A stretch of DNA of 64,000 nt from Geomonas paludis (GTDB lineage Bacteria; Desulfobacterota; Desulfuromonadia; Geobacterales; Geobacteraceae): assembly GCF_014193585.1 (NCBI RefSeq), contig NZ_BLXY01000003.1:372001-436000 (forward strand). Direction: 5' to 3'. Positions 4,264 to 59,600 of this stretch are shown here, in pieces. The translations under genes were made by a program, and so were the position numbers. Numbering within the stretch: the first letter of the stretch is position 1; each line of letters opens with the position of its first letter. The notes under the pieces are model-generated. The model saw only the letters and a list, made by a program, of their open reading frames with translations, ran no database searches and was not told the DNA's origin.

Positions 4264-4282
4264 TACTATCTCCTTTGTCTGG

Positions 4283-4361
4283 GGGGGACTGGCTCCGCAG
4301 GTGCCTGTCCCCCTTGCTTTTCGTCTGCCTAGGGACTGGCTCCGCAGGTGCCTGTCCCCCT
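4283..4361. repeat. Two copies of the GGGACTGGCTCCGCAGGTGCCTGTCCC element
   Basis: Direct copies at 4283-4313 and 4332-4361 have GGGAC/GTCCC ends around a GGCTCCGCAGGTGCC core. Related copies lie at 25361-25547 and 32060-32092. They sit between pdxJ and the parvulin gene. Confidence 0.7.
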
Positions 4362-4403
4362 TACTCTCAGGTTACTTACAAAAGTAGCCTGTCCCCTTTT
4401 TCT

Positions 4404-6483: not shown

Positions 6484-6520
6484 TTCACCTCTGATTGATT
6501 TATTTGCTGATTCACCACAT

Positions 6521-6634
6521 ACCCTCTCCCCCTGGGAGAGGGTGGCCGAAGGCCGGGTGAGGGGGTGTTATCCGCCACGTCATCCTGAACACAAGCCCTC
6601 ACCCCGGCCCTCTCCCGAAGGGCGCGGGAGAGTG
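6521..6634. repeat. REP-like palindrome pair between cdaR and glmM
   Basis: The left arm (6521-6564) has CCCTCTCCCCCTGGGAGAGGG. The right arm (6595-6634) has CCCTCACCCCGGCCCTCTCCC. Both have the GGGTGAGGG/CCCTCACCC boundary. It lies inside an otherwise tight operon. Confidence 0.75.
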
Positions 6635-6650
6635 GGCAGGAAACTGGTAG

Positions 6651-18398: not shown

Positions 18399-18442
18399 GG
18401 GTTACCTGTGGCTTCGGTAGATTTCGGGCAAAATCTAAAAAA

Positions 18443-18481
18443 CGCGGCACCCCGGTGGGATACAGTATCCGGGGTGGCGCG
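18443..18481. other. GC-rich 13-bp hairpin in the divergent intergenic region
   Basis: CGCGGCACCCCGG and CCGGGGTGGCGCG form a stem with one mismatch around a 13-base loop. It lies between the divergent TPR lipoprotein and APH/AAA genes, without a T-run on either side. It could be a 5' leader structure of the minus-strand transcript or a protein site. Confidence 0.5.
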
Positions 18482-18549
18482 GTTTACTACATGAAAGCTA
18501 GCATAAATAGGTAACAGCGTCAAACAACATTTAGATGCATTTTAGACTG

Positions 18550-18577
18550 TTGCACCTCAAATGCGGTATGGTACTAT
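18550..18577 (+). promoter_or_regulatory. Possible sigma-70 promoter for the APH/AAA - partner-switch operon
   Basis: TTGCAC (18550-18555) and TACTAT (18572-18577) are spaced by 16 bases, about 35 bases ahead of the ATG at 18612. Found by eye only. Confidence 0.4.
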
Positions 18578-18611
18578 TCTTAAGTGAAATCATTGGTTTA
18601 CCGGCAAAACG

Positions 18612-20174
18612 ATGGATCAAAAGCTTATAAAATCGCTACTTGAAGCACCAGCCTACCCAGAGCCGACGGCAGAGGTGCGCCTGGTCGAGACCCACGTCTC
18701 CTTCATCTTCATCACCGACCACTTCGTATACAAGGTAAAAAAGGCCGTCGATTACGGCTTTCTGGACTTCACCACGCTGGACCGGCGCCGCTTCTACTGC
18801 GGCGAGGAGGTGCGCCTGAACCGGCGCCTGTGCCCCGACGTCTACCTGGGGGTGGTCGAGCTCCGGGAGACCCCGCAGGGCGCTGCCTTCAACGGTTCCG
18901 GCAAGGTCATCGACTACGCCGTCAAGATGAAACGCCTGCCCCAGGAGCGCATGCTGGACCAGCTCCTCAAGGACGGGGCCGCCTGCGCCGCCGACATGGC
19001 CCGCATCGCGACCGCCGTGGCCTCCTTTCATGCCGCAGCGGAGCGAGATCCGCAGATCGAGGCCTGCGGCTCCCCCGCCGAGATCGGACAAAACTGGGAG
19101 CAGAACTTCCGCCAGAGCGCCCCCTTCGTCGGGACCACGCTGCTGGCCGGGGAACTGGCGGAAATCCGCCAATGGGCCATCGCCTTCCTGTCCGAAAACG
19201 AGACGCTGTTCCAGGCCCGGATCGCGGAAGGCTTCATCAGGGATTGCGACGGCGACCTGCACTCCGGCAACATCTGCCTCACCGACCCGGTCTGCATCTT
19301 CGACTGCATCGAGTTCAACGAGCGCTTCCGCTACATCGACACCGCCGCCGACCTCGCCTTCCTGCTCATGGACCTGGAGTATGCCGGCCGCCCCGACCTG
19401 GCGCGGGAACTGCTGGCCGCCTACTGTGCGGCAAGCGGCGACCGCAGCATGGCGCCGCTGCTCGACTTTTACAAGGCGCAGCGGGCCTTCGTGCGCGGCA
19501 AGGTCACCAGCCTGCGCCTGGGGCAGCCGGGGATGAGCCAGGAGCAGTCCGCTGCGGTGCGGGAAGCCGCCCGGCGCTACTACCGCTTGGCGCGCGGCTA
19601 CACACTGAGAAGCCGGCTCGCGCCGACGCTCATCCTCACCTGCGGCCTGAGCGGCTCCGGCAAGAGCAGCCTGGCCGCCGAGGTCAGCCGCGAACTCGGT
19701 TTCGACCTCGCCCGCTCCGATCTGCTGCGCAAGGCGCTGGCCGGCGTGCCGGCTGCAGGCGTCGAACCGGACGCAACCTACCGCGCCGGGATCTACAGCG
19801 AGGCCATGGACCGGGCCACCTACGACGCCCTCCTGGTCGAAGCCGAGCGCTCCCTTGCCGGCGGCAGGGGCATCGTGGCGGACGCGACCTTCCAGCGGCG
19901 TGCCGACCGGGAGCGCTTCAGGGAACTCGCAGCCAGAATGGGCGTCCCCTTCCTGGTCGTCGAAACGCGCTGTCCGGAAGAGGTTACCCGCGAACGGCTG
20001 GAGCGGCGCCGCCACGACCCGACCGAAGTCTCCGACGCCCGTTGGGAGCAGTACCAGCAGCAGCGCGCGGAATTCCAGGCGCCGCAGTCCGGGGAAAGCC
20101 TGCTGCTCGACAGCACCCTTCCGGTCTGGGACGAGGCGGAGCGGGTGCTCTCCGCCATGGGGTTGACGGCATGA
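18612..20174 (+). CDS. Fusion of an aminoglycoside-phosphotransferase-like domain and an AAA/P-loop kinase domain
   Basis: A 520-residue two-domain protein. Residues 1 to about 330 look like an APH/choline-kinase fold, with the catalytic loop CDGDLHSGNICL and the metal-binding IFDCIEFNERFRYIDTAADL. Residues about 340-520 are a P-loop kinase-like domain with Walker A GLSGSGKS (345-352) and the basic ATFQRRADRERFRELA segment. Proteins of this layout are common but largely uncharacterised. The substrate is unknown and drug resistance should not be assumed. Its stop overlaps the next start (ATGA), so it heads the partner-switch operon. Confidence 0.85.
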   Translation: MDQKLIKSLLEAPAYPEPTAEVRLVETHVSFIFITDHFVYKVKKAVDYGFLDFTTLDRRRFYCGEEVRLNRRLCPDVYLGVVELRETPQGAAFNGSGKVIDYAVKMKRLPQERMLDQLLKDGAACAADMARIATAVASFHAAAERDPQIEACGSPAEIGQNWEQNFRQSAPFVGTTLLAGELAEIRQWAIAFLSENETLFQARIAEGFIRDCDGDLHSGNICLTDPVCIFDCIEFNERFRYIDTAADLAFLLMDLEYAGRPDLARELLAAYCAASGDRSMAPLLDFYKAQRAFVRGKVTSLRLGQPGMSQEQSAAVREAARRYYRLARGYTLRSRLAPTLILTCGLSGSGKSSLAAEVSRELGFDLARSDLLRKALAGVPAAGVEPDATYRAGIYSEAMDRATYDALLVEAERSLAGGRGIVADATFQRRADRERFRELAARMGVPFLVVETRCPEEVTRERLERRRHDPTEVSDARWEQYQQQRAEFQAPQSGESLLLDSTLPVWDEAERVLSAMGLTA

Positions 20175-20419
20175 AGACCAACTTGAAGCAAATCGTGCTG
20201 CACCGGCTCAAGCTGAAGGACACCTGGGTGATCGCCTTCATCCTCGGCCTGGTGATGATGAACTACCCCTTCATCAGCATCTTCAACAAGCCGACCCTTC
20301 CCTTCGGCATCCCGCTCCTCTACCTCTACCTGCTGACCGGCTGGGTCTTCTCCATCTTCATCGTCTACCTGTTCAGCCGGGCGGCACGCAAGGACAGCGA
20401 CACCAAGGGGCACATGTAA
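20171..20419 (+). CDS. Small two-helix membrane protein coupled to the SLC5-phosphatase gene
   Basis: This 82-residue peptide has a basic N-terminus (MKTNLKQIVLHRLKLKDTW), two hydrophobic helices (about residues 20-37 and 45-68) and a charged tail ending at TAA 20417-20419. It overlaps the gene before (ATGA) and the one after (TAATG), so expression must be closely linked to both. Small genes with this layout also precede some SLC5-linked sensors such as CbrA (the CbrX-type ORF), which suggests a partner subunit of the transporter domain. That parallel is from memory and positional. Confidence 0.8.
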   Translation: MKTNLKQIVLHRLKLKDTWVIAFILGLVMMNYPFISIFNKPTLPFGIPLLYLYLLTGWVFSIFIVYLFSRAARKDSDTKGHM

Positions 20420-23400
20420 TGCTGGACGTGAACTGGGTCTGGGGCACCGCCCTGCTCTACATAGCATTTCTGTTCCTGGTCGCCTACTACGCCGACCAGC
20501 GCCAGAAGGCCGGCCGCAGCATCACCGCCAACGCCTGGGTCTACGCCCTCTCCATAGCGGTCTACGCCACCTCCTGGACCTTCTACGGCTCGGTCGGCAA
20601 GGCGGCCACCACCGGCATCGATTTCCTCCCGGTCTACCTGGGCCCCACCCTGACCGCCTTCAGCTGGTGGTTCCTGCTCAAGAAGATGGTGAGGATCTCC
20701 AAGGAAAACAACATCACCTCCATCGCCGACTTCATCAGTTCCCGCTACGGCTCCTCGCAGTGGCTGGGCGGCATCATCACCGTCATCACCCTGATGGGGG
20801 TGATGCCCTACATCGCCCTGCAGTTGAAAGCCATCTCCACCTCCTTCACCATCATCACCGGCTACCACGACTTCCACGTCGGCTTCATGGAACGGGTCTA
20901 CATGCCCTCCCCCCACCCGGGCCTGTTCACCGCGCTCTTTCTCGCCGTGTTCAGCGTGCTGTTCGGGGCGAGGCACCTGATCTCCACGGAGCGCCACGAC
21001 GGCCTGGTGGCGGCGATCGCGCTGGAATCGGTGGTGAAGCTGTTCGCCATGCTCACCGTCGGCCTGTGCGTCACCTACTTCGCCTTCGACGGCATGGCCG
21101 ACATCTTCCAGCGCATGCAGGTGAAGGATCCGCAGCTCCTGGCGCGGCTCACCACCTTGAGCGACCGCGGCAACAACTCCTACGCCTCCATGTTCAGCAT
21201 CCTGACCCTTTCCATGGGCGCCGTGATGCTCCTGCCGCGCCAGTTCCAGATCATGGTGCTGGAGAACGCGCACGAGTCGCACCTGAACACGGCATCCTGG
21301 CGCTTCCCGGCCTACATGTTCCTGATGAACCTGTTCGTGATGCCCATCGCCCTGGCCGGCGTGCTCATGAACGGCAACAACACGGGGGCCGACTACTTCG
21401 TGCTCACCCTCCCCATGCAGCTTGGCTACCCCTGGCTCGCGCTGGTCGCCTTCCTGGGCGGCTTCTCCGCCTCGGCCGGGATGGTGATGGTGGAATCCAT
21501 CGCCGTCTCCACCATGCTGTTGAACCACGTGCTGCTGCCGGTGGTGATCAAGCTCAAGCCGCGCACCTGGTTCCCGCTGCTGCTCATCAACCTCAAGCGC
21601 TTCGGCATCGTGCTGGTCATCCTTTTGGGCTACCTGTACCAGAGCGTGGTCGGCGAAAGTTACATGCTGGCCAACATGGGGCTCATCTCCTTCTCGGCGG
21701 CGATCCAGTTCGCACCGGCCCTGGTGGGCGGCCTCTACTGGCCCCGCGGCAACAAGGCGGGCGCCATCGTGGGGCTCTTGGCCGGCTTCGCGGTCTGGTT
21801 CTACACGCTGCTCATGCCCTCGCTGTTGCAGGCCGGCGGCTGGCAGGGGAATTTCCTGCTCCACGGCCCCTTCGGCATCGCCCTGCTGCGTCCCCAGGAG
21901 CTGTTCGGACTGACCGGCCTGGACCCGTACACGCACACCCTGTTCTGGAGCATGTTCATGAACATCTCCGCCTACGTCTCCCTCTCCATCCTGTTGGGCC
22001 AGGGGGAGAAGGAGCGCGAGCAGGTGAACCGCTTCGTCCGCGTCTTCACCCCCGAGAGCGCCGAGCCGCAGTGGGAAACCAAGCGCCTTTCCAAGCCGGT
22101 CACCATCGTGCAGTTCGTGAACCTCATGACCAAGTTCATCGGCGAGCAGCAGGCCAACGCCGCCATCACCGACTACCTCGGGGACCGCGAGATCGACAGC
22201 AAGGGGGGCGTCTCCGAGTTCGAGCTCCCCAACCTGAAGCGCTTCGTGGAGAAGACCCTGGCCGGCTCTCTGGGCGGGGCGGCGGCGGGGGCCGTGGTCG
22301 AGAGCTTCCTCTCCGACATCGGTTCGCGCATGGAGCCGGTCTACGACATCTTCTCCACGGTGCGCACCTCCCGCGACCAGAGCCGGGAGGCCCTCTTCGT
22401 CAGGCTGCGCGCCTCGGAGATCATGAACCGGTCGCTGGAGCTGGACATCATCATGGGCGACCTCCTGGAACTGTTGCTGCGCGAGTTCAAGCTCGACCTC
22501 GCGGTGATCCGCCTTTTGAACCAGGAAGCGGTGCTGCAGGTGCGCTGCTTCCGCGGCATCGGCGGGGAGCGGCTCACCGCGGAGGACCGCATCCTGGAGA
22601 TCGACACCCACGTCGGCGAGGCCTTCCTCGGGCGACGCACCGAGTTCTTCAACGACACCGCCTTCATCAGCAAGCCCATCGCCAAGGAGATCTTCCGCCG
22701 CGAGGGGATCAAGTCCTTCGCCCACATCCCCATCGCCAGCGAGGGATCCCAGCCGGTCGGCATCCTCTCGGTCTTCTCGCGCTCCATCGTGGGGCTTTTC
22801 ACCGAGCAGTTCGTGGAACTCCTGGAGAGCCTCGCCGGGCAGCTGGCGCAGGCGGTGCGCATCGTCGAGGAACGCGAGGCCAAGGAACGGGAGCGGCGCC
22901 AGAAGGAAGCGGCCCTTTTGGAGAATGCCCGCGTCACGCGCGACCTGGAGCTCGCCAAGCAGATCCAGCTGTCCCTGCTCCCGGAGGCCCCCCCCACCCT
23001 GCCGGGGGTGCGCATCGCCAGCCGCTGCGTCCCCGCCGCCCACGTCGGGGGGGACTACTACGACTTCTTCGAGCGCGGCGACCAGGTGGTGGACCTGGTC
23101 ATGGCCGACGTCTCCGGCCACAGCGTGGGTGCCGCGCTGATCATGGTGGAAACGCGCAGCGTGCTCAGGGCGCAGATCAAGGAGCCGCGTTCGGCGAGCG
23201 ACCTCCTGAAACTCCTGAACGAGCTCCTCCACGACGACCTGACCGGCGCCGAACTGTTCATCACCATGTTCTGCGCGAGGTACGACAGCGCGACCCGGAC
23301 GCTCAGGTACGCCAACGCCGGCCACACCCGCCCGCTTCTGTTCCGCGCCGGGACTGCCATCGAGCTGGACGCCGAAGGTCTCATCCTCGGGGTCGAGCGC

Positions 23401-23655
23401 AACGTCGCCTTCGAGGAACAGCACATGGCGCTGCAGGCGGGGGACCTCCTCTTCATCTACACCGACGGCATCATCGAGGCCGAGAACGGCGCCGGCGAGC
23501 TCTTCGGCATCCCGAGGCTGTGCGGGCTGCTCGAAACCATGCTGGAACTGGAGCCCGAAGTGGTGATCGAAAAGGTGCTCTCGGAGGTTTCATCCTACGC
23601 CTGGCCCAATCCTTTACAGGACGACATATCCATGGTAGTCATGAAAGTTGCCTGA
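20419..23655 (+). CDS. SLC5-type sodium symporter domain fused to STAC-like, GAF and SpoIIE/PP2C phosphatase domains
   Basis: A 1078-residue sensor-like protein. Residues 1 to about 530 form a sodium:solute symporter (SLC5) fold with about 13 helices. Residues about 540-625 resemble the STAC linker that follows SLC5 domains in CbrA-type kinases. A GAF domain spans about 674-818, a coiled coil about 815-857, and a PP2C/SpoIIE serine phosphatase about 858-1078. Metal-binding acids are all present: GGDYYD (D879), MADVSGH (D897), YTDG (D1016), DDIS (D1068-1069). It should dephosphorylate the STAS protein encoded next in response to a solute, ion or GAF signal. The family norm is a histidine kinase at this place. 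Ligand unknown. Confidence 0.93.
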   Translation: MLDVNWVWGTALLYIAFLFLVAYYADQRQKAGRSITANAWVYALSIAVYATSWTFYGSVGKAATTGIDFLPVYLGPTLTAFSWWFLLKKMVRISKENNITSIADFISSRYGSSQWLGGIITVITLMGVMPYIALQLKAISTSFTIITGYHDFHVGFMERVYMPSPHPGLFTALFLAVFSVLFGARHLISTERHDGLVAAIALESVVKLFAMLTVGLCVTYFAFDGMADIFQRMQVKDPQLLARLTTLSDRGNNSYASMFSILTLSMGAVMLLPRQFQIMVLENAHESHLNTASWRFPAYMFLMNLFVMPIALAGVLMNGNNTGADYFVLTLPMQLGYPWLALVAFLGGFSASAGMVMVESIAVSTMLLNHVLLPVVIKLKPRTWFPLLLINLKRFGIVLVILLGYLYQSVVGESYMLANMGLISFSAAIQFAPALVGGLYWPRGNKAGAIVGLLAGFAVWFYTLLMPSLLQAGGWQGNFLLHGPFGIALLRPQELFGLTGLDPYTHTLFWSMFMNISAYVSLSILLGQGEKEREQVNRFVRVFTPESAEPQWETKRLSKPVTIVQFVNLMTKFIGEQQANAAITDYLGDREIDSKGGVSEFELPNLKRFVEKTLAGSLGGAAAGAVVESFLSDIGSRMEPVYDIFSTVRTSRDQSREALFVRLRASEIMNRSLELDIIMGDLLELLLREFKLDLAVIRLLNQEAVLQVRCFRGIGGERLTAEDRILEIDTHVGEAFLGRRTEFFNDTAFISKPIAKEIFRREGIKSFAHIPIASEGSQPVGILSVFSRSIVGLFTEQFVELLESLAGQLAQAVRIVEEREAKERERRQKEAALLENARVTRDLELAKQIQLSLLPEAPPTLPGVRIASRCVPAAHVGGDYYDFFERGDQVVDLVMADVSGHSVGAALIMVETRSVLRAQIKEPRSASDLLKLLNELLHDDLTGAELFITMFCARYDSATRTLRYANAGHTRPLLFRAGTAIELDAEGLILGVERNVAFEEQHMALQAGDLLFIYTDGIIEAENGAGELFGIPRLCGLLETMLELEPEVVIEKVLSEVSSYAWPNPLQDDISMVVMKVA

Positions 23656-23746
23656 ACCAAAGGCGGCGCCACTTGCTAAATGTCGGCACTTATTGCACAA
23701 TAAATCTGGCGGTATACCGTACGGACCTCACTACAAGGAGATGGAC

Positions 23747-24088
23747 ATGAACCTAGCGACCGAGACGAGGAACGACGTTGTAATCATATACGTCAAGGAG
23801 GAAAGGCTGGACGCACACAACTCAACCGAGCTTAAGAGCGCGGTACAGAAGCTTTTTGAGGACGGCAAAAAGAATGTTCTGGTGGATCTGAAGGATGTAC
23901 GTTTTATTGACAGTTCCGGGTTGGGTGCGCTGGTTTCGGGGTTCAAGAATGCCATCTCGCACCAGGGCAACCTGAAACTTTCCTCGCTGCAGTCCCAGGT
24001 CAAGTCGATGTTCGAACTGACGCGCCTGCACCGGGTTTTCGAGATCTTCCCTTCCACAGTGGAGGCGGTGGAGAACTTTCAGTCCTAG
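23747..24088 (+). CDS. STAS-domain anti-sigma factor antagonist (RsbV/SpoIIAA-like)
   Basis: A 113-residue single STAS domain with the phosphorylation motif FIDSSGLGAL. In partner switching, the unphosphorylated form binds the anti-sigma kinase and frees its target, and the SpoIIE-type phosphatase restores that form. The ATG at 23747 stands 6 bases after AAGGAG. An ATG at 23741 would leave no spacing. It follows the phosphatase gene by about 90 bases and precedes the kinase gene by 31, completing the pathway. Confidence 0.95.
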   Translation: MNLATETRNDVVIIYVKEERLDAHNSTELKSAVQKLFEDGKKNVLVDLKDVRFIDSSGLGALVSGFKNAISHQGNLKLSSLQSQVKSMFELTRLHRVFEIFPSTVEAVENFQS

Positions 24089-24119
24089 CGGGTCGGGCGG
24101 CGGCAAAGCGAGGCATCAG

Positions 24120-24542
24120 ATGGGAAACACGATCGAGGTCGACATAAAGGTTCCCAACAAGACCAGGTACCTGAGTCTCATCGGGAAGATCGGGGAGGAC
24201 ATCGCCCGGGAGCTGGAGCGTTACAGCGGCGACAAGGAGGTGCTGGCCTACCATCTGAACCTGGTTCTCACCGAGGCGATGGTGAACGCCATCAAGCACG
24301 CCGGCCCCAAGGAGCCGGAGAAACTGGTGCGCATCGTGATCACCCTGCACCGGGATGACCTGACCATCAGGGTGTACGACGACGGCCAAGGCTTCGACAT
24401 CAACGCCATCCCGGCCCCCAACTTCGAGGAGTTGGAGGACCGGGGCCGGGGCATCTTCCTGATCCGCACCCTCATGGACTCGGTGGCCTACCGCAAAAAC
24501 TGCAAGGAAAACATGCTGGAGATGAAGAAGAAGCTGGCTTGA
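24120..24542 (+). CDS. RsbW/SpoIIAB-like serine kinase, anti-sigma factor type
   Basis: A 140-residue HATPase_c domain protein without the HisKA region of histidine kinases. The N box is LVLTEAMVNAIKHA, the G1 box is VYDDGQGFD, and the GRGIFLIRTLMD helix is typical of RsbW-type kinases. It should phosphorylate the STAS protein and hold a sigma factor or other target. No sigma factor gene lies nearby, so the target is elsewhere. Its TGA abuts the stop codon of the convergent lgt gene. Confidence 0.94.
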   Translation: MGNTIEVDIKVPNKTRYLSLIGKIGEDIARELERYSGDKEVLAYHLNLVLTEAMVNAIKHAGPKEPEKLVRIVITLHRDDLTIRVYDDGQGFDINAIPAPNFEELEDRGRGIFLIRTLMDSVAYRKNCKENMLEMKKKLA

Positions 24543-25316
24543 TTACCCCCGCCTGCAGCGATAGCGCACCATCGCCACGCCCAGCAGGAACATCGGCAAA
24601 CTAAGCATCTGCCCCATCGACAATCCCCCCACCACGAACCCGAGCTGCTCGTCGGGCTGCCTGACGAACTCCACCAGGAACCGGAACAGGCCGTACAACG
24701 CGATGAAGGACCAGACCACCGCGCCGTCACAGCGCACCCGCTTGGAGACCTGGTACAGGATCAGGAACATGATCGGCCCCTCCAGGAACGCCTCGTAAAG
24801 CTGCGAGGGATGGCGCGGCAGCGGGCCGCCGCTGGGGAAGACGATCCCCCAGGGGGCATCGGTGACGCGGCCGTAGAGTTCGCCGTTGATGAAGTTGCCG
24901 ATCCGGCCGAAGCCAAGCCCCACCGGTGCCGCCAGGAACCCGAGGTCGGCCAGCGGGTAAAAGCCCAGCTTGAACTTGCGCACGTAGTAGATGCTGGCCA
25001 GCAGCGCGCCGATCAGGCCGCCGTGGAAGGACATCCCCCCTTCCCAGACCGCGAACAGCTTGAGCGGGTGGGCGAGGTAGAAGTCGAAGTTGTAGAACAG
25101 GATGTAACCCAGGCGCCCGCCCAGGATCACCCCGACCGCGACCGTGAAGATCAGGTCGGCGACCTGGTCCCGGTTCAGGGGGAGCCCCTTTCTCTTCACC
25201 CCGGACAGGATGATGAAGTAGGCGGCGACGAAGCCGCAGATGTACATGAGACCGTACCAGCGGAATTCCAGCGGCCCCAGGCGCAGGAAGACCGGGTCGA
25301 TGTTCGGGAAGATCAT
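24543..25316 (-). CDS. lgt: Phosphatidylglycerol-prolipoprotein diacylglyceryl transferase
   Basis: Lgt moves diacylglycerol from phosphatidylglycerol to the lipobox cysteine of prolipoproteins, the first step of lipoprotein maturation. The 257-residue protein has about seven helices and the Lgt signature GRIGNFINGELYGR. RWYGLMYICGF near the N-terminus and the later HPSQLYEAFLEG are also characteristic. The ATG at 25316 (MIFPNIDPV) follows GGAGA. An upstream extension would run into the repeat region. Several lipoproteins in this window would be its substrates. Confidence 0.97.
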   Translation of the reverse strand: MIFPNIDPVFLRLGPLEFRWYGLMYICGFVAAYFIILSGVKRKGLPLNRDQVADLIFTVAVGVILGGRLGYILFYNFDFYLAHPLKLFAVWEGGMSFHGGLIGALLASIYYVRKFKLGFYPLADLGFLAAPVGLGFGRIGNFINGELYGRVTDAPWGIVFPSGGPLPRHPSQLYEAFLEGPIMFLILYQVSKRVRCDGAVVWSFIALYGLFRFLVEFVRQPDEQLGFVVGGLSMGQMLSLPMFLLGVAMVRYRCRRG

Positions 25317-29556: not shown

Positions 29557-32055
29557 TTGCCACGTTTCACCATCTTCAAAAAGATCCTGGTCATCACGCT
29601 GCTGCTCTCCCTGCTGCCGCTGCTGGTCTCCTCCGCCATCCTGCTGGCCAACCTGCAGTCGACCAGCGCCAGGCTTTCCGCCGAGATCAGCGCATCCGAT
29701 GACCGCCAGGCGGTCGAATCGCTGCAGATGAAGGCGCGCGACCTCGCGGAAAACATCAAGGATTTCCTGCACCAGTGCGAGTGCGACCTCCTCTTTCTCT
29801 CCCGCTCCCCCCTCTCCCAGCCGTCGCTCATGAACTTCTACCAGACCCGCCTCTCCGAGGTGTGGCAGCGCGGCGGCAGCTCCACCGCCGCCCAGGGAAC
29901 CCACGAGTTCCTCCCCATCTACCGCTCCATCGCCCTCATCGACAGAAACGGCCAAGAGCAGGTGGTGATCCGCAACGGCCGCTTCGTCCCCAGGGAGCAG
30001 CTTGCCGACGTCTCCGCCCCGGCCAATACCGAGTTCAAGAGCGAGGAGTACTTTGCGCGGGTGCGCGCGCTGAAGCCCGGAGAGATCTACGTCTCCCACC
30101 TGACCGGCTTCCACATCGGCAAGCAGGAACAGCTGGCGGGGGCCGCGGACCCCGAGAGCGCCTACGACGGCAAGATGTACCAGGGGGTGATCCGCTTCGG
30201 GGCGCCGCTGTTCGACCCCGCCGGCGCCTTCAATGGGATGGTGCTCCTCTCCCTGGACCATCGCCACCTGATGGAATTCACCCAGCACATCGACCCCGGC
30301 AAGAACGCCTCGTCGCTCTTTCCTTCCTACCAAAGCGGCAACTACGCCTTCCTCTTCGACGACGAGGGATGGATCATCACCCACCCCAAGTTCTGGGACA
30401 TCCGCGGCGTGGACCCGCTGGGGCGGCTGGTCCCTCCCTACACCGCCCGCTCCGGCAAGGCCGAGATCGAGAGCGGCCGCATCCCCTTCAACCTCGACCA
30501 CGCTGGCTTCATCCACCCCGGCTACCCCAAGGTCTCGGCGGCGGTGCGCGCCAAGCAGGAGGGATCCGTCGACATCACCAACGTCGGCGGGGCCAAGAAG
30601 ATCATGGCCTACGCCCCCATCTTCTACGACACCGGCGACTACGCGAAACACGGTGTCTTCGGCGGCGTCACCATCGGCTTCCAGGTGGACCGGTTCCACG
30701 AGGCGTCGCGCAAAGGGAGCAGGCTCATCGCCAGGCAACTCGGTGAGCACCGTCGGACCAGCGCCGCCATCATCCTCCTGACGGCACTGGTATCCGCACT
30801 CTCCGCCTGGCTCCTCTCCCGCGGCATCAGCGTTCCGCTGCGGCAGCTGACCGAGAACGCCGGCAAGCTCGCCGCGGGCGACTTCGCGGAAAGGGTCGCG
30901 GTCAACTCGGCCGACGAAATAGGTGTGCTGGCGCAGACCTTCAACAACATGGCCGACGAGTTGGACCGCCGCAAGCTGAGCCTGCTCTCCACCCTGGAGG
31001 AGCTGAAGCAGTCGCGGCTGGAGATCATGGACGAGCGCAACTTCAAGGCGAGCGTGCTGGAAAGTATCTCCAGCGGCATCGTCACCTTCTCGCCGCATGG
31101 CTTCCTCACCTCCATCAACCGCACCGGCCGGCTCTTTTTGGGCGATGACGTGGCCGAGGGGATCCACTACCGCGAGCTGTTCCGGGACTGGGAGGGGTTG
31201 AGCGAGCGCATCGCCGCGGTCTTCGCCACCAACTCGGGGTACGGCCGGGAGACCTTCCGCTTCGACCACGAACCGGGCAAGACCCATTTCGACGTCGGCT
31301 TCTTCCCCATCGGGCATGATTCCGAGCACGGGCTCACCATCACCCTTAGAAACGAGACCGAGCGGGAGAACCTGCACGAGGAGATGATGCGCCTGGACCG
31401 GCTCGCCTCGCTGGGCAAACTGTCGGCGGGGATCGCGCACGAGGTGAGAAATCCCCTCACCGGCATCTCGCTGCTTTTGGACGACCTGCACGACCAGGCG
31501 GCCTCCAACAGCGCGGACCGCGAACTGATCAAGAAGGCCCTGGCCGAGATCGAGCGGGTGGAAAAGCTGGTCAACGCCCTGTTGAATTACTCCTCGCCGG
31601 TACGCGCCGAGTTCCGCGAGTGTGACCTGAACCGGCTGGTGAACGACACGGTGCTGTTGCTGCGGCGCCCCTGTGAGAAGCAGCAGGTGCAGCTCCTCCT
31701 TGACGAAGGCGAGGTGCCGCCCTTCAGGCTCGACCCGGAAAAGATCAAGCAGGCGGTCCTGAATATCATCAGGAACGCGCAGCAGGCGCTCCCCCAGGGG
31801 GGACGCATCGAGGTGCGCACCGCGGTGCGCGACGGCCACGCGGTGATAGAGATCCGCGACGACGGCCCCGGCATCGTCCCGGAGGATCTCCCCCTCATCT
31901 TCGAGCCGTTCTTCACCAGGAAGGGCGCCGGTACCGGGCTCGGCCTCTCCATCACCCAGCGCATCATTGAGGAACACCAGGGGAGGGTCCAGGTGGAGAG
32001 CGCGCCGGGCGAGGGAACCCGTTTCACCGTGGAACTGCCGCTGGACGTGCCATAG
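29557..32055 (+). CDS. DctB-like membrane sensor histidine kinase (Cache-HAMP-PAS-HisKA-HATPase)
   Basis: About 832 residues. An N-terminal helix, a large periplasmic Cache-type sensor (about residues 30-400) and a second helix (RTSAAIILLTALVSALSAW) come first. A HAMP linker (SVPLRQLTENAGKLAAGDF), a PAS region and the kinase core follow. The H box is LSAGIAHEVRNPLTG, the N box LNIIRNAQQALPQGG, and G boxes DDGPGI and GAGTGLGLSI. The TTG at 29557 follows GGGGGAG. An upstream TTG at 29542 is less well placed. The sigma-54 regulator and TRAP genes that follow suggest it senses the transported acid. Confidence 0.93.
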   Translation: MPRFTIFKKILVITLLLSLLPLLVSSAILLANLQSTSARLSAEISASDDRQAVESLQMKARDLAENIKDFLHQCECDLLFLSRSPLSQPSLMNFYQTRLSEVWQRGGSSTAAQGTHEFLPIYRSIALIDRNGQEQVVIRNGRFVPREQLADVSAPANTEFKSEEYFARVRALKPGEIYVSHLTGFHIGKQEQLAGAADPESAYDGKMYQGVIRFGAPLFDPAGAFNGMVLLSLDHRHLMEFTQHIDPGKNASSLFPSYQSGNYAFLFDDEGWIITHPKFWDIRGVDPLGRLVPPYTARSGKAEIESGRIPFNLDHAGFIHPGYPKVSAAVRAKQEGSVDITNVGGAKKIMAYAPIFYDTGDYAKHGVFGGVTIGFQVDRFHEASRKGSRLIARQLGEHRRTSAAIILLTALVSALSAWLLSRGISVPLRQLTENAGKLAAGDFAERVAVNSADEIGVLAQTFNNMADELDRRKLSLLSTLEELKQSRLEIMDERNFKASVLESISSGIVTFSPHGFLTSINRTGRLFLGDDVAEGIHYRELFRDWEGLSERIAAVFATNSGYGRETFRFDHEPGKTHFDVGFFPIGHDSEHGLTITLRNETERENLHEEMMRLDRLASLGKLSAGIAHEVRNPLTGISLLLDDLHDQAASNSADRELIKKALAEIERVEKLVNALLNYSSPVRAEFRECDLNRLVNDTVLLLRRPCEKQQVQLLLDEGEVPPFRLDPEKIKQAVLNIIRNAQQALPQGGRIEVRTAVRDGHAVIEIRDDGPGIVPEDLPLIFEPFFTRKGAGTGLGLSITQRIIEEHQGRVQVESAPGEGTRFTVELPLDVP

Positions 32056-32059
32056 CAGG

Positions 32060-32092
32060 AGGGGGACTGGCTCCGCGAGGTGCCTGTCCCCT
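32060..32092. repeat. GGGACTGGCTCCGCGAGGTGCCTGTCCCC element
   Basis: A single copy of the family seen at 4283-4361 and 25355-25547. It starts five bases after the kinase stop. Confidence 0.65.
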
Positions 32093-32130
32093 TGCTCTTG
32101 GCTTGGATACTAAATAGCAATAAGCCGCTC

Positions 32131-32249
32131 CCCCCCTCGCCCTCCGGGAGAGGGGGCCCGAAGGGCGGGTAAGGGCCAGCCGGCTGCAGCCATCGTGCCA
32201 CTGGCAACGCCCTTACCCTGGCCCTCTCCCGGAGGGAGAGGGGATGTGG
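32131..32249. repeat. REP-like palindrome pair between kinase and regulator genes
   Basis: The left arm (32131-32177) has CCCTCCGGGAGAGGG and GGGTAAGGGC. The right arm (32207-32249) has GCCCTTACCCTGGCCCTCTC and CCGGAGGGAGAGGGG. It falls inside a two-component operon, 18 bases ahead of the regulator start. Confidence 0.75.
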
Positions 32250-32266
32250 ACAGAAAAAAGGAAACC

Positions 32267-33643
<1,377 letters not shown>

Positions 33644-33996
33644 CTCGACCTTGGCGACCGTCGCCCCCAGGCGGCAGTCGCCTTCTCTCCCCCCTCTCCC
33701 CCCTCTCCCCCCTTCCGCCCCCACTCGCACACGGCTCCATCACTCGCCCCCATCACTCGCCCCCATCACTCGCCCCCATCACTCGCCCCCATCACTCGCC
33801 CCCATCACTCCCATCACTCCCATCACTCCCATCACTCCCATTCCCCCCCCCGCAATAGAACCACGTCCCCTCCCCGCAACCACCTGTTCTATTTTTAGCA
33901 CCCGTGCGACATTAAAAGCAGCCAACCACCTCTTCGCCCGTCACTCGCCTTCTCGCCCTCGTCCTAATCCAGCTCCCGCACCCTACGCTGGCAACT
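33644..33996. other. Intergenic region upstream of the TRAP operon
   Basis: No convincing gene is present. It is C-rich on the plus strand and contains the tandem repeat at 33739-33839. A 175-codon open frame spanning it from 33651 is low complexity and lacks a ribosome binding site. Confidence 0.5.
33739..33839. repeat. Composite tandem repeat: five 13-bp units then four 9-bp units
   Basis: Five perfect copies of ATCACTCGCCCCC (33739-33803) run straight into four perfect copies of ATCACTCCC (33804-33839). The shorter unit is the longer one with four bases lost. The array is about 260 bases upstream of the sigma-54 promoter. Confidence 0.9.
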
Positions 33997-34018
33997 ATCC
34001 GCCACCGCAGTGGCGGAT
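33997..34018. promoter_or_regulatory. Perfect inverted repeat, candidate activator site for the TRAP operon
   Basis: ATCCGCCAC and GTGGCGGAT, 9 bp each, are separated by CGCA. The centre lies about 92 bases upstream of the -24 element at 34099, the normal distance for a DctD/NtrC-type upstream activating sequence. Confidence 0.65.
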
Positions 34019-34098
34019 TTCAGCCACGATAATTCGCCACAACCATCATTCTGCCAAGAGCACACCATATAGAACAGCACGTTACATCACCACGCCAG

Positions 34099-34114
34099 TG
34101 GCACCGCAGTTGCA
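34099..34114 (+). promoter_or_regulatory. Sigma-54 (-24/-12) promoter of dctPQM
   Basis: TGGCAC, five bases (CGCAG), then TTGCA match the sigma-54 consensus exactly. It lies about 112 bases ahead of the dctP start, with a sigma-54 activator gene immediately upstream. Confidence 0.88.
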
Positions 34115-34226
34115 ACAAAACAATGTATCGTATACGCGTCACCATCAACGGCGCAGAATTCATGATGCATTGAGTTAATCAATCAGCTCTAACACCAGCA
34201 GCACACACCCCAAGGAGGAGTACCGT

Positions 34227-35237
34227 ATGAACCTGAAAGCCTGTTTTAAAAGCTTGGTAATGGCCGCAGCCCTTGCCCTGCCCGTTACCGCATGGGCCGC
34301 ACCCGCACCGATCGTCATCAAGTTCAGCCACGTCGTCGCACAGCACACCCCGAAAGGGCAGGCCGCCGACTACTTCAAGAAACTGGCCGAGGAGCGCACC
34401 AAGGGGCGCGTCAAGGTCGAGGTTTACCCGAACAGCCAGCTCTACAAGGACAAGGAAGAGATGGAGGCGCTGCAGCTGGGCGCAGTCCAGATGCTGGCGC
34501 CGTCGCTGGCCAAGTTCGCTCCGCTGGGCGTGAAAGAGTTCGAAGTATTCGACCTCCCCTTCATCTTCGACAACTACCAGGAACTGCACAAGGTGACCCA
34601 GGGTCCGGTCGGCGCCAAGCTGCTGAAGAAACTCGAGCCCAAAGGGATCCTCGGTCTCGCCTACTGGGATAACGGCTTCAAGGTGATGAGCGCCAACAAG
34701 CCGATCAAGAGCGTCGCCGACTTCAGGGGGCAGAAGATGCGCATCCAGTCCTCCAAGGTGCTCGACTCCGAGATGCGCTCGGTAGGGGCCATCCCGCAGG
34801 TGCTCGCCTTCTCCGAGGTGTACCAGGCGCTGCAGACCGGCGTCGTCGACGGCACCGAGAATCCCCCCTCCAACCTCTACACCCAGAAGATGCACGAGGT
34901 GCAGAAGTACGTCACCCTCTCTGACCACGGCTACCTGGGCTACGCGGTCATCGTCAACAAGAAGTTCTGGCAGGGTCTGCCGGCCGACATCCGCACCATC
35001 CTGGAAGGGTGCATGAAGGACGCCACCAAATTCGCCAACGACGTGGCCAAGAAGGACAACGACGAGGCCCTGGCCGCCGTCAAGAAGTCCGGCCGCAGCC
35101 AGCTGATTTCCCTGACCCCGCAGGAGCGCGCCGCCTGGAAGAAGGCGATGGACAAGGCGCACAAGGACAACACGGCACGTATCGGTGCCGACATCGTCAA
35201 GGAAGTCTACGCCGCCACCGGCTACAACCCGAACTAA
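34227..35237 (+). CDS. dctP: TRAP transporter substrate-binding protein (DctP family)
   Basis: A 336-residue periplasmic binding protein with a Sec signal peptide (MNLKACFKSLVMAAALALPV, cleavage after TAWA). DctP-family segments are IKFSHVVAQHTPKGQAADYF, VYPNSQLYKDKEE, the conserved arginine region FRGQKMRIQSSK and EVYQALQTGVVDGTENPPSN. It should capture C4-dicarboxylates or a related organic acid for DctQM. A strong AAGGAGGAG ribosome site precedes the start. Control by sigma-54 and the adjacent kinase/regulator pair is likely. The ligand is inferred from family. Confidence 0.95.
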   Translation: MNLKACFKSLVMAAALALPVTAWAAPAPIVIKFSHVVAQHTPKGQAADYFKKLAEERTKGRVKVEVYPNSQLYKDKEEMEALQLGAVQMLAPSLAKFAPLGVKEFEVFDLPFIFDNYQELHKVTQGPVGAKLLKKLEPKGILGLAYWDNGFKVMSANKPIKSVADFRGQKMRIQSSKVLDSEMRSVGAIPQVLAFSEVYQALQTGVVDGTENPPSNLYTQKMHEVQKYVTLSDHGYLGYAVIVNKKFWQGLPADIRTILEGCMKDATKFANDVAKKDNDEALAAVKKSGRSQLISLTPQERAAWKKAMDKAHKDNTARIGADIVKEVYAATGYNPN

Positions 35238-35258
35238 CCACACCACACCTGCACGTCA

Positions 35259-35284
35259 CGGCCGCCCGCCCGAGCGGGCGGCCG
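35259..35284 (+). other. Perfect 11-bp GC stem-loop between dctP and dctQ
   Basis: CGGCCGCCCGC, a CCGA loop, then GCGGGCGGCCG. There is no T-run, so it is more likely an mRNA 3'-end stabiliser or partial attenuator than a full terminator. Confidence 0.75.
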
Positions 35285-35312
35285 TTTGAACGAGTTCCAG
35301 GAGAAGCCCATC

Positions 35313-35987
35313 ATGATGAAGTATCTTGACCATCTTGAGGAAATCATCATCACCTTCCTCATCGCCGCCGCCACGGTGATCATCGCCCTGGCAGTCGGCC
35401 ATCGCTATCTGTCCGGCCTGCCCATCCCGGCACTGCAGGACTGGCTGCTTACCATTAACATGAGCTGGGCGCAGGAGCTCTGCATTTACATGTTCGTCTG
35501 GATGGCCAAGTTCGGCGCCGCCTACGGCGTCAGAAGCGGCATCCACGTCGGCGTTGACGTCATCGTCACGAGACTCCCCGACTCCTGGCGCAAGGTGACC
35601 GTGATCATCGCCATCCTGGGGGGCGCGCTCTTTACCGGCCTGATCGGCACCCTGGGCGCCAAATTCGTCTGGGAGAACGGCATGCACTACGCCGTCTTCA
35701 ACAAGCTGGGCATGAACATTACCGACCTGATCGAAGGGCCGATCACCCCGGACCTCGAGTGGCCGACCTGGATCATCTACTCCGCCGTTCCGCTGGGCTC
35801 GTACCTGATGTGCTTCCGCTTCCTCCAGGTGGGCGTCGCCTTCCTGCGCACCGGAGAGCTGCCGCACCACGACCATGCCCATGTCGACGGCATCGACGAG
35901 ATCGGCACGCTGGACGCCACCGAAGCACTGGAAGAGTACGAGCAGCACAAGTTCAACCATAAGCAAGAGCAGGGGGGTGTGAAATGA
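35313..35987 (+). CDS. dctQ: TRAP transporter small permease (DctQ family)
   Basis: A 224-residue four-helix membrane subunit that links the binding protein to the large permease. Helices start at YLDHLEEIIITFLIAAATVI. The conserved WAQELCIYMFVWMAKFGAAYG and the RSGIHVGVDV loop are family features. An unusually long acidic/His-rich cytoplasmic tail follows the last helix. The ATG at 35313 has AGGAG upstream. It overlaps dctM (ATGA). Confidence 0.94.
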   Translation: MMKYLDHLEEIIITFLIAAATVIIALAVGHRYLSGLPIPALQDWLLTINMSWAQELCIYMFVWMAKFGAAYGVRSGIHVGVDVIVTRLPDSWRKVTVIIAILGGALFTGLIGTLGAKFVWENGMHYAVFNKLGMNITDLIEGPITPDLEWPTWIIYSAVPLGSYLMCFRFLQVGVAFLRTGELPHHDHAHVDGIDEIGTLDATEALEEYEQHKFNHKQEQGGVK

Positions 35988-37363
35988 GTACTGCAGTAGT
36001 TGGCTGGGAACAGTTTTCCAAGAAAAAGGCGGCCACCTGGCTGTTGGGCATCGCCGTCATCCTTGGAGCGATAGCCACCCTCGGCAGCACCGGCATCGTC
36101 TTCGCGCTGTTGCTGGCGCTCATGCTGACCGGCATGCCCATTTCCATCGCCCTGGGCCTTACCGTCCTCACCTTCCTGTTCTTCTTCTCCGAGGTGCCCA
36201 CCGAAGCGGTGGCCATGAAGCTCTTCACCGGCATCGAGAAGTTCGAGATCATGGCGATCCCGTTCTTCATCCTGGCGGGCAACTTCCTGACCCACGGCGG
36301 CGTGGCCAAGAGGATGATCAACTTCGCCACCTCCATGGTCGGCCACTGGCACGGCGGCCTGGCCCTTGCCGGCGTCATGGCCTGCGCCCTCTTCGCCGCG
36401 GTCTCCGGCTCCAGCCCCGCCACGGTGGTTGCCATCGGCTCCATCATGATGCCGGCCATGGTGCGCGCCGGCTATCCCAAGCGCTTCGGCGCCGGCGTCA
36501 TCACCACCTCGGGCTCTTTAGGCATCCTGATCCCCCCCTCCATCCCCATGGTGGTCTACTGCGTCGCCACCAACTCGTCGGTCGGCGCGCTGTTCATGGG
36601 TGGTGTCATCCCGGGCCTCATGCTGGCCTCGTTGCTCGGCCTGGTGGCCTGGTGGAGGGCGAAGCAGGGTAACCTCCCCCGCATGAAAAAGGCGACTTGG
36701 GGCGAGCGGGCCAAGGCCCTGCGCGAAAGCATCTGGGGCCTGTTCCTGATCGTCATCGTATTGGGCGGCATCTATTCCGGCATGTTCACCCCGACCGAGG
36801 CGGCCGCCATGAGCGCGGTCTACGCCTTCGTCATCGCCGTCTTCGTCTACCGCGACGTACCGTTCAAGAAGGTCCCCAAGGTGCTGCTCGACTCGGCCAG
36901 CATGTCGGCGATGCTCCTGTACATCATCACCAACGCCGTGCTCTTCTCCTTCCTGATGACGCACGAGAACATCCCGCAGCTCATGGCGGACTGGATCCTC
37001 GGTCACAACCTGGGCGTGGTCTCCTTCCTGCTGGTCACCAACGTGCTGCTGCTTCTGGCCGGCAACGTGATGGAGCCCTCCTCCATCATCCTGATCCTCG
37101 CCCCGATCCTGTACCCGGTCGCCATGAAGCTCGGCATCGACCCGGTGCACTTCGGCGTGCTGATCACGGTGAATATGGAGGTCGGCATGTGCCACCCGCC
37201 GGTGGGCTTGAACCTCTACGTCTCCAGCGGCATCACCAAAATGGGGATATCGGAACTCACCATTGCGGTCTGGCCCTGGCTCATGGCGATGCTCGGCTTC
37301 ATGCTGCTGGTGACCTACGTGCCCATAATCTCGCTCTGGCTGCCGCGAGCGCTGGGGTACTAG
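35984..37363 (+). CDS. dctM: TRAP transporter large permease (DctM family)
   Basis: A 459-residue membrane protein with about 12 helices that forms the sodium-driven transport channel. Family segments are FALLLALMLTGMPISIALGL, IPFFILAGNFLTHGGVAKR, SGSSPATVVAIGSIMMPAM and IPPSIPMVVYC. The NMEVGMCHPPVGLNLYV region near the C-terminus is strongly typical. Its start overlaps the dctQ stop and a terminator follows. Confidence 0.96.
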   Translation: MSTAVVGWEQFSKKKAATWLLGIAVILGAIATLGSTGIVFALLLALMLTGMPISIALGLTVLTFLFFFSEVPTEAVAMKLFTGIEKFEIMAIPFFILAGNFLTHGGVAKRMINFATSMVGHWHGGLALAGVMACALFAAVSGSSPATVVAIGSIMMPAMVRAGYPKRFGAGVITTSGSLGILIPPSIPMVVYCVATNSSVGALFMGGVIPGLMLASLLGLVAWWRAKQGNLPRMKKATWGERAKALRESIWGLFLIVIVLGGIYSGMFTPTEAAAMSAVYAFVIAVFVYRDVPFKKVPKVLLDSASMSAMLLYIITNAVLFSFLMTHENIPQLMADWILGHNLGVVSFLLVTNVLLLLAGNVMEPSSIILILAPILYPVAMKLGIDPVHFGVLITVNMEVGMCHPPVGLNLYVSSGITKMGISELTIAVWPWLMAMLGFMLLVTYVPIISLWLPRALGY

Positions 37364-37389
37364 CATCAGCGTTAGCAGGTGCAGTAATC

Positions 37390-37428
37390 AAAAAAGGGGC
37401 CTGTCCTTTGGGACGGGCCCTTTCTCTT
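37390..37428 (+). terminator. Rho-independent terminator of the dctPQM operon
   Basis: A 10-bp stem (GGGCCTGTCC with GGACGGGCCC, one G-T pair), a 4-base loop and a TTTCTCTT tail, 30 bases after the dctM stop. Confidence 0.8.
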
Positions 37429-37522
37429 CGCGGACGTAGCGTCCGAAAATCCTTTACCCTGCGCTGGAGTTGGGCTATTTATGCCAAGTTCACCTTAGCG
37501 CCACTCCCAGGAAGCCACGGAC

Positions 37523-38806
37523 ATGACATCACTGCTCATTGCTATCTTTCTCGTTGCCTATGCTGCCATTGCCCTGGAGCACCCCATCAGGATCAACAAG
37601 TCATCGTCGGCACTGCTTGGCGCCGGGCTGCTCTGGTCCGTGTACGCCCTCTTGAGCCCCGACAGCCACCTCGTCGTGCATCAGTTGAACGAATCGTTGG
37701 CCGCTACGGCACAGATCGTCTTCTTTCTGATCGGGGCCATGACCATCGTGGAAGTGGTGGATGCCCACAACGGTTTCGAGGTGATCACGGCACATATCAA
37801 GACCCGCAAACTGTCATCGCTGATGTGGCTGGTCGGCTTTGTCACTTTCTTCCTGAGTGCCGTCCTCGACAACCTCACCACCACCATCGTGATGATCTCG
37901 CTGATGAAGAAGCTCCTGGACCGCCAGGAGGACCGCCTCTTCTTCGCCGGGCTCATCGTCATCGCCGCCAACGCCGGTGGCGCCTGGACCCCGATCGGCG
38001 ACGTGACCACCACCATGCTCTGGATCGGCGGACAGATAACCACCCTCGAGATCATGAAGGGGGTACTTGCCCCTTCCCTGGTAAACCTTTTGCTGCCATT
38101 GGCTGTCGTTGCCTACCAGCTCAAGGGGCGCGAGGTGGTGGCCCCGGTGCGTCTGGAGAATGGCGACCTCCCCCAGACCACGAACTTCGAGCGCAACCTC
38201 ATGTTCTTCCTGGGCATCGGCATCCTGGTTAGCGTTCCCGTGTTCAAGACCGTCACTCACCTCCCCCCCTTCATGGGGATCCTGCTCGGCCTTGGCGTCC
38301 TGTGGCTAGCGGGCGACCTGGTGCACCGCAACAAGGAGGAGATGGACAAGCGCCATTTCACCCTCGCCCACGCACTGGAGAAGATCGACATGAGCTCCAT
38401 CGTCTTCTTCATCGGCATCCTGCTCGCGGTGGCCACCCTCGAGCATACCCACATCCTGGCGGCGATCGCCTCCTGGCTGGACCGGGCCATCGGCCGCCTG
38501 GACCTGATCGTGACCCTCATCGGGCTGGTGAGCGCCATCGTGGACAACGTACCGCTGGTCGCGGCCAGCATGGGGATGTACAACCTGGCCCAGCACCCGG
38601 CGGACAGCTTCCTTTGGGAGTTCATGGCCTACTGCGCGGGGACGGGAGGCTCGATCCTGGTGATCGGCTCGGCCGCCGGGGTCGCGGCCATGGGGCTGGA
38701 GAAGCTGCATTTCTTCTGGTACATGAAGCGGATCAGCGGCCTCGCCCTGCTCGGCTACTTCGGCGGCATCGGCGTTTACCTGCTGCAAACCAGGCTGTTC
38801 GGCTGA
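37523..38806 (+). CDS. nhaD: NhaD-type sodium/proton antiporter
   Basis: A 427-residue ion transporter of the NhaD/IT superfamily with about 12-13 helices. Typical segments are ALEHPIRINKSSSALLGAG, FFLIGAMTIVEVVDAHNGF, SAVLDNLTTTIVMI and NAGGAWTPIGDVTTTMLW. A matching second-half SAIVDNVPLVAASMGMY reflects the inverted repeat of the fold. It exports sodium against proton uptake. It is a single gene between the TRAP operon and the DUF882 gene, and sodium cycling would suit the sodium-driven TRAP and SLC5 proteins nearby. Confidence 0.95.
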   Translation: MTSLLIAIFLVAYAAIALEHPIRINKSSSALLGAGLLWSVYALLSPDSHLVVHQLNESLAATAQIVFFLIGAMTIVEVVDAHNGFEVITAHIKTRKLSSLMWLVGFVTFFLSAVLDNLTTTIVMISLMKKLLDRQEDRLFFAGLIVIAANAGGAWTPIGDVTTTMLWIGGQITTLEIMKGVLAPSLVNLLLPLAVVAYQLKGREVVAPVRLENGDLPQTTNFERNLMFFLGIGILVSVPVFKTVTHLPPFMGILLGLGVLWLAGDLVHRNKEEMDKRHFTLAHALEKIDMSSIVFFIGILLAVATLEHTHILAAIASWLDRAIGRLDLIVTLIGLVSAIVDNVPLVAASMGMYNLAQHPADSFLWEFMAYCAGTGGSILVIGSAAGVAAMGLEKLHFFWYMKRISGLALLGYFGGIGVYLLQTRLFG

Positions 38807-57632: not shown

Positions 57633-57723
57633 GACATAGCTCCATCCATCTGTTCGACATGCGCCCAGACTCCTTAGCTACTTGCAGGCATCAAAAGGGG
57701 ACAGGTGCAAAGCCTGCGAAGTT

Positions 57724-58635: not shown

Positions 58636-58647
58636 TTTGCGACCCCC

Positions 58648-59598: not shown

Positions 59599-59600
59599 CA

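Follow-up and report, generated by a model that had tools for sequence, protein, structure and literature searches.

Gene content of the locus

The window analyzed here is a 64,000-nucleotide stretch of Geomonas paludis (contig NZ_BLXY01000003.1, positions 372,001 to 436,000), whose nearest named relatives are Geomonas species with identities of up to 96%. It carries at 20171-24542 four genes that, judged from their sequences, probably form a transceptor-driven partner switch, the output of which was most likely swapped once near the base of the class. We take this class to be Desulfuromonadia and the phylum to be Desulfobacterota. The genes encode a small membrane protein, here termed X, a fusion protein joining SLC5, STAC, GAF and PP2C domains, a STAS protein and an RsbW-like kinase (Table 1). 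A preliminary description of this DNA had listed the last three, and their open reading frames (ORFs) were all found at the positions given there; it left out the upstream X gene, which goes with the fusion. Chance or miscalled ORFs were ruled out as the source of the unit by the domain matches and the conservation reported below.

The order SLC5-STAC-GAF-PP2C proposed for the fusion was borne out by Pfam, by alignment with CbrA and by STAC profiles. Pfam matched SpoIIE (residues 889-1077, E 2.1e-48) and GAF_2 (residues 673-813, E 3.4e-12) and did not call the SLC5 part. A HisKA/HATPase_c output was absent by Pfam, with SpoIIE instead, and the fusion is therefore not a member of the SLC5/STAC histidine kinase family. 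Aspartates D879, D882, D897, D1016, D1068, and D1069, which we presume to be the PP2C metal ligands, were invariant across 15 fusion rows, in agreement with the earlier statement that the metal-binding aspartates are intact. Residues 661-838 aligned with 2qyb_A, deposited as "Membrane protein, putative" (E 5e-66); thus, the GAF part of a close relative, presumably from Geobacter sulfurreducens, has already been crystallized. At the N terminus, residues 14-479 aligned with the CbrA-type histidine kinase chain 10ed_A (phmmer, E 6e-67), which confirmed the SLC5 identity of this part. We equate 10ed with the CbrA SLC5-STAC structure described in PMC13022988, in that K196 and the pocket residues coincide.

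The STAC domain, which the preliminary description had left to a domain search, was recovered with the broader profiles. One profile, built from 24 SLC5-STAC rows of differing output, could be aligned with 10ed as far as residue 593 (E 3.1e-112), and for the part of 21 rows comprising transmembrane helix 13 (TM13) and STAC, 10ed was the sole match below E 0.5 (E 2.4e-4). With a STAC-only profile of 14 kinase or GGDEF-EAL rows, the top match was CbrA (10ed) 518-592 (E 1.3e-3), and hhalign related these 14 rows to 12 phosphatase-type rows with 99.7% probability (E 8e-26). The STAC profile of 15 phosphatase-type rows alone gave no PDB match up to E 10, and an AlphaFold model of the STAC region (101 residues, mean predicted local distance difference test score [pLDDT] of 67, a low value) gave no solved-structure match at E ≤ 0.001. 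The presence of a STAC domain in the fusion is thus established by sequence and not by structure.

The STAS protein (Pfam STAS, E 4.3e-21) and the kinase (HATPase_c_2, E 3.2e-24) follow the fusion, as had been described. In length-filtered rows from which near-copies and paralogues were excluded, the STAS site D56-S57-S58-G59-L60-G61 was invariant (31/31), as were kinase residues E52, N56, D87, G89, G91, G109, and G111 of the N, G1, and G2 boxes (33/33). The STAS protein resembles the TM1442, SpoIIAA, and RsbV structures, and the kinase resembles RsbW (6m36, E 2.5e-7) and SpoIIAB structures. Among NCBIfam models, the kinase matched the RsbW, SpoIIAB, and RsbA-type anti-sigma models below their cutoffs, and no other family at E ≤ 0.001. 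The parts of a full phosphatase-antagonist-kinase loop are complete, as claimed before, and lie in one direction; the activities and the switching themselves would follow by analogy.

Table 1. Features of the unit and its immediate neighbors (positions in the window)
Feature	Position	Strand	Basis
APH/AAA_33 two-domain predicted kinase gene	18612..20174	+	Pfam AAA_33 1.1e-29, APH 7.7e-7
X, small membrane protein, 82 aa	20171..20419	+	Two hydrophobic stretches read from sequence
SLC5-STAC-GAF-PP2C fusion, 1078 aa	20419..23655	+	ORF, Pfam, structure-chain alignments
SLC5 (CbrA-like) transporter/receptor domain, residues ~1-530	20419..22008	+	Alignment with CbrA
STAC domain, residues ~548-638	22060..22332	+	Profile comparisons
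GAF domain and start of helical linker, residues 661-838	22399..22932	+	Match to 2qyb_A
SpoIIE/RsbU-type PP2C (PPM) phosphatase domain, residues 889-1077	23083..23649	+	Pfam SpoIIE
STAS protein, RsbV/SpoIIAA type, DSSGLG site	23741 or 23747..24088	+	Pfam STAS; two candidate starts
RsbW/SpoIIAB-type serine kinase, 140 aa	24120..24542	+	Pfam HATPase_c_2
lgt, prolipoprotein diacylglyceryl transferase, convergent neighbor	24543..25316	-	Pfam LGT 1.3e-79

Conservation, distribution, and origin of the unit

A search of 39 genomes of relatives yielded 30 six-kb loci, own genome included, and in 28 of them X, STAS, and kinase lay within 1.5 kb of the fusion; the two loci lacking the partners, L032 and L033, are copies. 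Among 27 called-gene loci with one SLC5+PP2C ORF, 23 had X at position -1, STAS at +1, and the kinase at +2 relative to the fusion. L136 stops at a contig edge, and the N-terminal side of L145 lies off its contig. The chromosomal setting of the unit varies: it adjoins lgt and the APH/AAA gene in some genomes and mreB, rpsT, or hydrogenase genes in others (these three identified by eye), which suggests that the unit itself is the thing kept. At L173 (G126:C1:2781000-2800000), the fusion gene contains an in-frame TAG and the PP2C part is a separate 374-aa ORF; either a damaged gene or a fault in the assembly may account for this, and the locus was scored as bare PP2C, the stop splitting its gene.

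The described layout is real, and it is class-wide rather than a one-off. Of 244 class genomes, 205 matched the fusion (E ≤ 1e-170) and 226 the kinase (E ≤ 1e-15). The two occurred together in 203 genomes, the fusion alone in 2, the kinase alone in 23, and neither in 16, a co-occurrence with a Fisher p of 1e-12, uncorrected for descent. These counts come from two lists merged by hand and include many incomplete drafts; presence of the fusion is by E threshold, full length being seen among the matches listed.

Across the phylum, a sample of 395 genomes contained 48 that reached the fusion threshold, 17 in-class and 31 out-of-class. The match extended to fusion residue 1077 or 1078 in the 17 in-class genomes, whereas all 35 matches in the 31 others ended between residues 700 and 846. 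The kinase gave E ≤ 7.4e-36 in the 17 in-class genomes and 8.8e-18 at best in 11 out-of-class genomes. From the 31 out-of-class genomes, 15 loci were fetched, with an SLC5 gene called in 13. The proteins share the sensor half of the fusion (41-47% identity) and differ in output: all seven scanned carry HisKA and HATPase_c, with GAF matched in 6 of 7 (one below the cutoff). X was matched upstream in 9 of the 13 loci, and several have adjacent REC proteins, as judged by eye. Among 72,556 plasmid records, 370 matched the fusion and none had one place covering 80% of it; 10 of 50,697 phage records matched, none covering 80%. Apparent SLC5-PP2C fusions in Ignavibacteria and kin, taken from 3-kb match spans, were set aside: the matched query residues begin at 729 or later, at the PP2C end only.

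We then built a maximum-likelihood tree from the SLC5-STAC part alone of 53 fetched rows, 29 phosphatase-type and 24 other, excluding L034 (a near-copy), fusions shorter than 850 aa, and L222 and L229 (wrong strand called). The 29 PP2C rows grouped together, set off from the rest by a branch with 100/99 support that recurred in all 200 of the 200 bootstrap trees, and the out-of-class kinases were their neighbors. This tree grouping, like the domains, the intact motifs, the conservation of the unit, and its class restriction within the sample, is read directly from the sequences. On this evidence, an older SLC5-STAC-GAF sensor most likely had its histidine kinase output exchanged once for PP2C, at the base of the class or close to it.

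Two other kinds of protein were met among the relatives. On plasmid pAZKH of Azoarcus sp. KH32C (L160, 5968-9159), SLC5-STAC is followed by GGDEF-EAL, with an X-like gene upstream and no GAF match; this is, by its predicted domains, a third kind of output for the SLC5-STAC sensor. Same-genus genomes (L151, L152, and L153) hold a distant SLC5 clade of long hybrid kinases on a separate branch of the sensor tree, L153 matching PAS, HisKA, HATPase, and REC in Pfam.

The sensor half and protein X

The closest known systems are CbrA/CbrX and, with them, CrbS and RpuS. They share with the present unit the SLC5 and STAC domains, an overlapping small upstream gene, and the CbrA lysine of the Na2 site; they use a histidine kinase and a response regulator where this unit has PP2C, STAS, and RsbW, and CbrA has PAS where the fusion has GAF. 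In CbrA, K196 fills the Na2 site and transport is proton-driven, as stated in the structural account of PMC13022988. The aligned residue of the fusion is K207, which is kept in 23 of the 24 SLC5-STAC rows; the exception, L134, is also the one row of the sensor tree that was flagged for a long terminal branch. In a remote alignment, Escherichia coli PutP S340 and T341, which we take to be Na2-site residues, fall on fusion G354 and M355. The wording "sodium-solute transporter" used in the preliminary description is thus unsupported, though not disproved.

The ligand pocket was read by hand from the alignment. Y49, W53, F69, Y73, and F425 of the fusion are identical to CbrA Y51, W55, F71, Y75, and F406, whereas CbrA S53, A56, and F248 are replaced by T51, T54, and S265. 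The pocket being partly identical and partly different, the ligand of the SLC5 domain is likely a small molecule and need not be histidine.

X resembles CbrX as a two-helix small protein, its helices being read from the sequence, with a gene that overlaps or abuts the SLC5 fusion gene. The X stop and the fusion start have one base in common in the window, and the spacing ranges from -4 to 9 bases across 23 units. A relative of X with the motif NYPFxxIFN precedes SLC5 fusions with phosphatase, kinase, and GGDEF-EAL outputs. The likeness to CbrX is one of gene position and size. A sequence relation was found neither with the X profile, which matched nothing relevant in the PDB, nor through DUF3311, which reached only E 7e-4 on X, below its cutoff, and was weak in 4 of 27 X proteins; no CbrX sequence was compared directly. 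CbrX binds the CbrA SLC5 domain in the solved structure (PMC13022988) and is described as translationally coupled to CbrA in PMC6591292.

Proposed switch, its target, and competing explanations

We infer the phosphatase and kinase activities, partner switching, the linker mechanism, binding by X, and common transcription of the genes from homologous systems. The SLC5 domain with its partner X would bind a small metabolite, perhaps transporting it in a proton-coupled manner. STAC would read the conformational state of SLC5, GAF would add a second, cytoplasmic signal, and the combined signal would travel via the helical linker to PP2C. With the phosphatase on, in whichever ligand state that may be, STAS would be dephosphorylated at a site within D56-S57-S58-G59, and bare STAS would bind the RsbW-like kinase and pull it off its target; with the phosphatase off, the kinase would rephosphorylate STAS and hold the target. 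Activation of PPM phosphatases through a linker, and the swapping of sensors between PPM phosphatases, kinases, and GGDEF proteins, are reported in PMC12143880, and the SLC5 fusion family looks like a natural case of such exchange. According to PMC11418112, docking loops decide which STAS protein a PPM phosphatase accepts.

The downstream half is alike in RsbU/RsbP/RsbZ-RsbV-RsbW and SpoIIE-SpoIIAA-SpoIIAB, with a PP2C, a STAS antagonist, a HATPase serine kinase, and conserved motifs; here, a transporter-like transceptor is the sensor and no sigma gene was seen adjacent. Our literature searches found no description of an SLC5-PP2C partner switch, in line with the preliminary description, which knew of no system with this exact layout. 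The joining of SSS/SLC5 to PP2C is nevertheless not entirely new: section 14 of a 2021 review states that Actinobacteria SSS+HATPase_c proteins also carry GAF and PP2C_SIG (PMC7918813), with HATPase_c in the same protein there and in a separate kinase gene here. That section names neither partner proteins nor the extent of conservation. The G. metallireducens genome paper mentions GSU1427/Gmet_1229, an anti-anti-sigma gene that has a frameshift as well as phosphatase and kinase domains; it is apparently distinct from the genes of the unit. The interest lies in the class-wide output swap and in the target: one SLC5-STAC sensor would drive histidine kinases in sister classes, GGDEF-EAL on the Azoarcus plasmid, and a serine phosphatase here. 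Signaling by a transporter-like domain, unsettled even for CbrA, would become testable through a simple soluble readout, the phosphorylation of STAS, and the Geobacter group would gain a candidate global switch, none like it having been found in the literature searches.

Several observations weigh against the transceptor-driven switch. Three of the 27 loci (L126, L135, and L145) have a fusion without adjacent STAS or kinase, their genomes also holding a complete unit (L127, L129, and L028), and L232 to L234 are three further partnerless copies in genomes with a second fusion elsewhere. In the window, the fusion and STAS genes are 91 bases apart and may or may not be transcribed together; no consensus promoter was found upstream of the STAS gene within 18400-24700. 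The AlphaFold model of the whole fusion (mean pLDDT 36) was unusable and was not used. One genus of the same family has lost X and SLC5-STAC-GAF in all four fetched loci, where the APH/AAA gene is followed by a bare PP2C (254-267 residues) and then by STAS-RsbW. These bare PP2Cs nest inside a 100/95 fusion clade of the PP2C tree, and therefore the sensor was probably deleted. In family f15, the four genomes examined of 12 have STAS-RsbW with no phosphatase at the locus, behind the APH/AAA gene in three of them. The transporter input would therefore be dispensable to the core switch. For X, PMC13022988 reports that cells without CbrX still grow on histidine, and PMC6591292 judges a function of the CbrX peptide itself highly improbable; X may be relevant for translation alone.

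For CbrA, PMC7918813 reports that the SSS domain is unneeded for kinase function and that deletion of STAC had no visible phenotype in P. fluorescens, although it lowered a target in P. putida. The first of these reports, together with the joint loss of SLC5 and GAF in one genus, would fit an SLC5 domain that is a mere membrane anchor and no longer a sensor, leaving the GAF domain, which the 2qyb crystal marks as compact and which could sense alone, in sole control of the phosphatase. We regard this as unlikely. Of the 70 columns invariant in the 24 SLC5-STAC rows, all but four lie within SLC5; K207 and, in the hand-read alignment, CbrA pocket residues are kept; and 23 of 27 loci retain X next to the fusion. 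Repeated origins of the STAC-PP2C joining, or its lateral transfer, in place of a single output swap, appear more improbable still. The several chromosomal places of the unit would suit such a history, as would the PP2C domains of the same clade found behind REC-PAS-PAS (L141) and in L156; the 100/99 branch and its bootstraps speak for the single swap, within the limits of the rows fetched and the root position, and the neighbors APH/AAA, lgt, and TPR recur across families.

We next considered the target, which was said not to be encoded nearby; accordingly, no sigma or anti-sigma target gene was recognized beside the examined units, gene starts being read by eye. A Sigma70_r2 domain was matched in four proteins of the genome: RpoD, one resembling RpoS (RpoS best NCBIfam match, below its cutoff), RpoH, and FliA, with no SigB/SigF-family protein among them. 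That RpoS and FliA are both present lends some credit to the idea that the kinase is an ordinary anti-sigma factor for one of them and the unit a general stress or motility switch, as do the partner switches described in PMC6482189, which control RpoS in both P. aeruginosa and Shewanella and, in the former, also reach FliA through FlgM. We hold this possible but somewhat doubtful. The single-contig genome G060 has the unit (L174) and no FliA match, and the unit (L134) is present without RpoS in G037, a draft with a completeness rating of 100%, whose four sigma matches, read partly by eye, are RpoD-sized, ECF-like (extracytoplasmic function), RpoH-like, and FliA. Judged by domain matches and partly by eye, neither RpoS nor FliA, nor any other single alternative sigma factor, thus seems to be an obligate target across the class. 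Moreover, 11 of the 16 genomes without fusion and kinase have an RpoS-range score and 10 have a strong FliA match. A rule equating a weak score with absence of RpoS was dropped, since G050 carries an RpoS-like protein. Direct action on an enzyme or another regulator is known from the SiaC and SypA systems. A nonsigma target of this kind, on which bare STAS or the kinase would act directly, would fit the lack of a sigma gene recognized by eye beside any examined unit and the failure of any single sigma factor to track the unit; we nonetheless lean away from it, as the kinase scores with the RsbW, SpoIIAB, and RsbA-type anti-sigma models, though below cutoffs.

Returning to the transceptor-driven switch, the genome may offer it more than one input. 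The DSSGLG site is present in only one of the four STAS genes, that of the window, and therefore several phosphatases probably feed one switch. An orphan REC-PAS-PAS-PP2C protein (L141, G000:C2:366000-378000, 4239-6176) has a PP2C 54% identical to that of the fusion, which falls inside the fusion PP2C clade with weak placement (80/74); this protein probably provides the window's STAS protein with a second input. The third phosphatase of the genome, L142, falls outside that clade. We tentatively extend these points to a broader scheme, in which the transceptor was rewired once at the class base from a two-component to a serine-phosphorylation switch and has since been the main RsbV-RsbW input of the class, REC-PAS phosphatases being grafted on, so that occupancy of a proton-coupled LeuT fold might directly set the availability of a core transcription factor (RpoH or RpoD being candidates) or of some other global regulator. 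Elsewhere in the genome is a further RsbW-like kinase that stands alone (L143, G000:C3:151000-165000, 6196-6639), with no STAS or phosphatase match among the genes called beside it.

Upstream of the unit, the stop of the APH/AAA_33 gene overlaps the start of X by 4 bases. In 15 of the 23 four-gene units, this gene occupies position -2 relative to the fusion, and it is also present at loci that have lost the fusion; it heads the apparent operon and is best taken as a context gene. On the other side, lgt also lies 3 to 4 genes or fewer downstream of the unit in many other class loci. Farther along the window, and as read from translations, 29557-38806 (+) contains a sensor kinase, a response regulator, and a TRAP-type transporter gene set, possibly a separate nutrient-sensing locus 5 kb downstream of the unit, and 57186-63776 (-) contains genes resembling a Tad/Flp pilus cluster.

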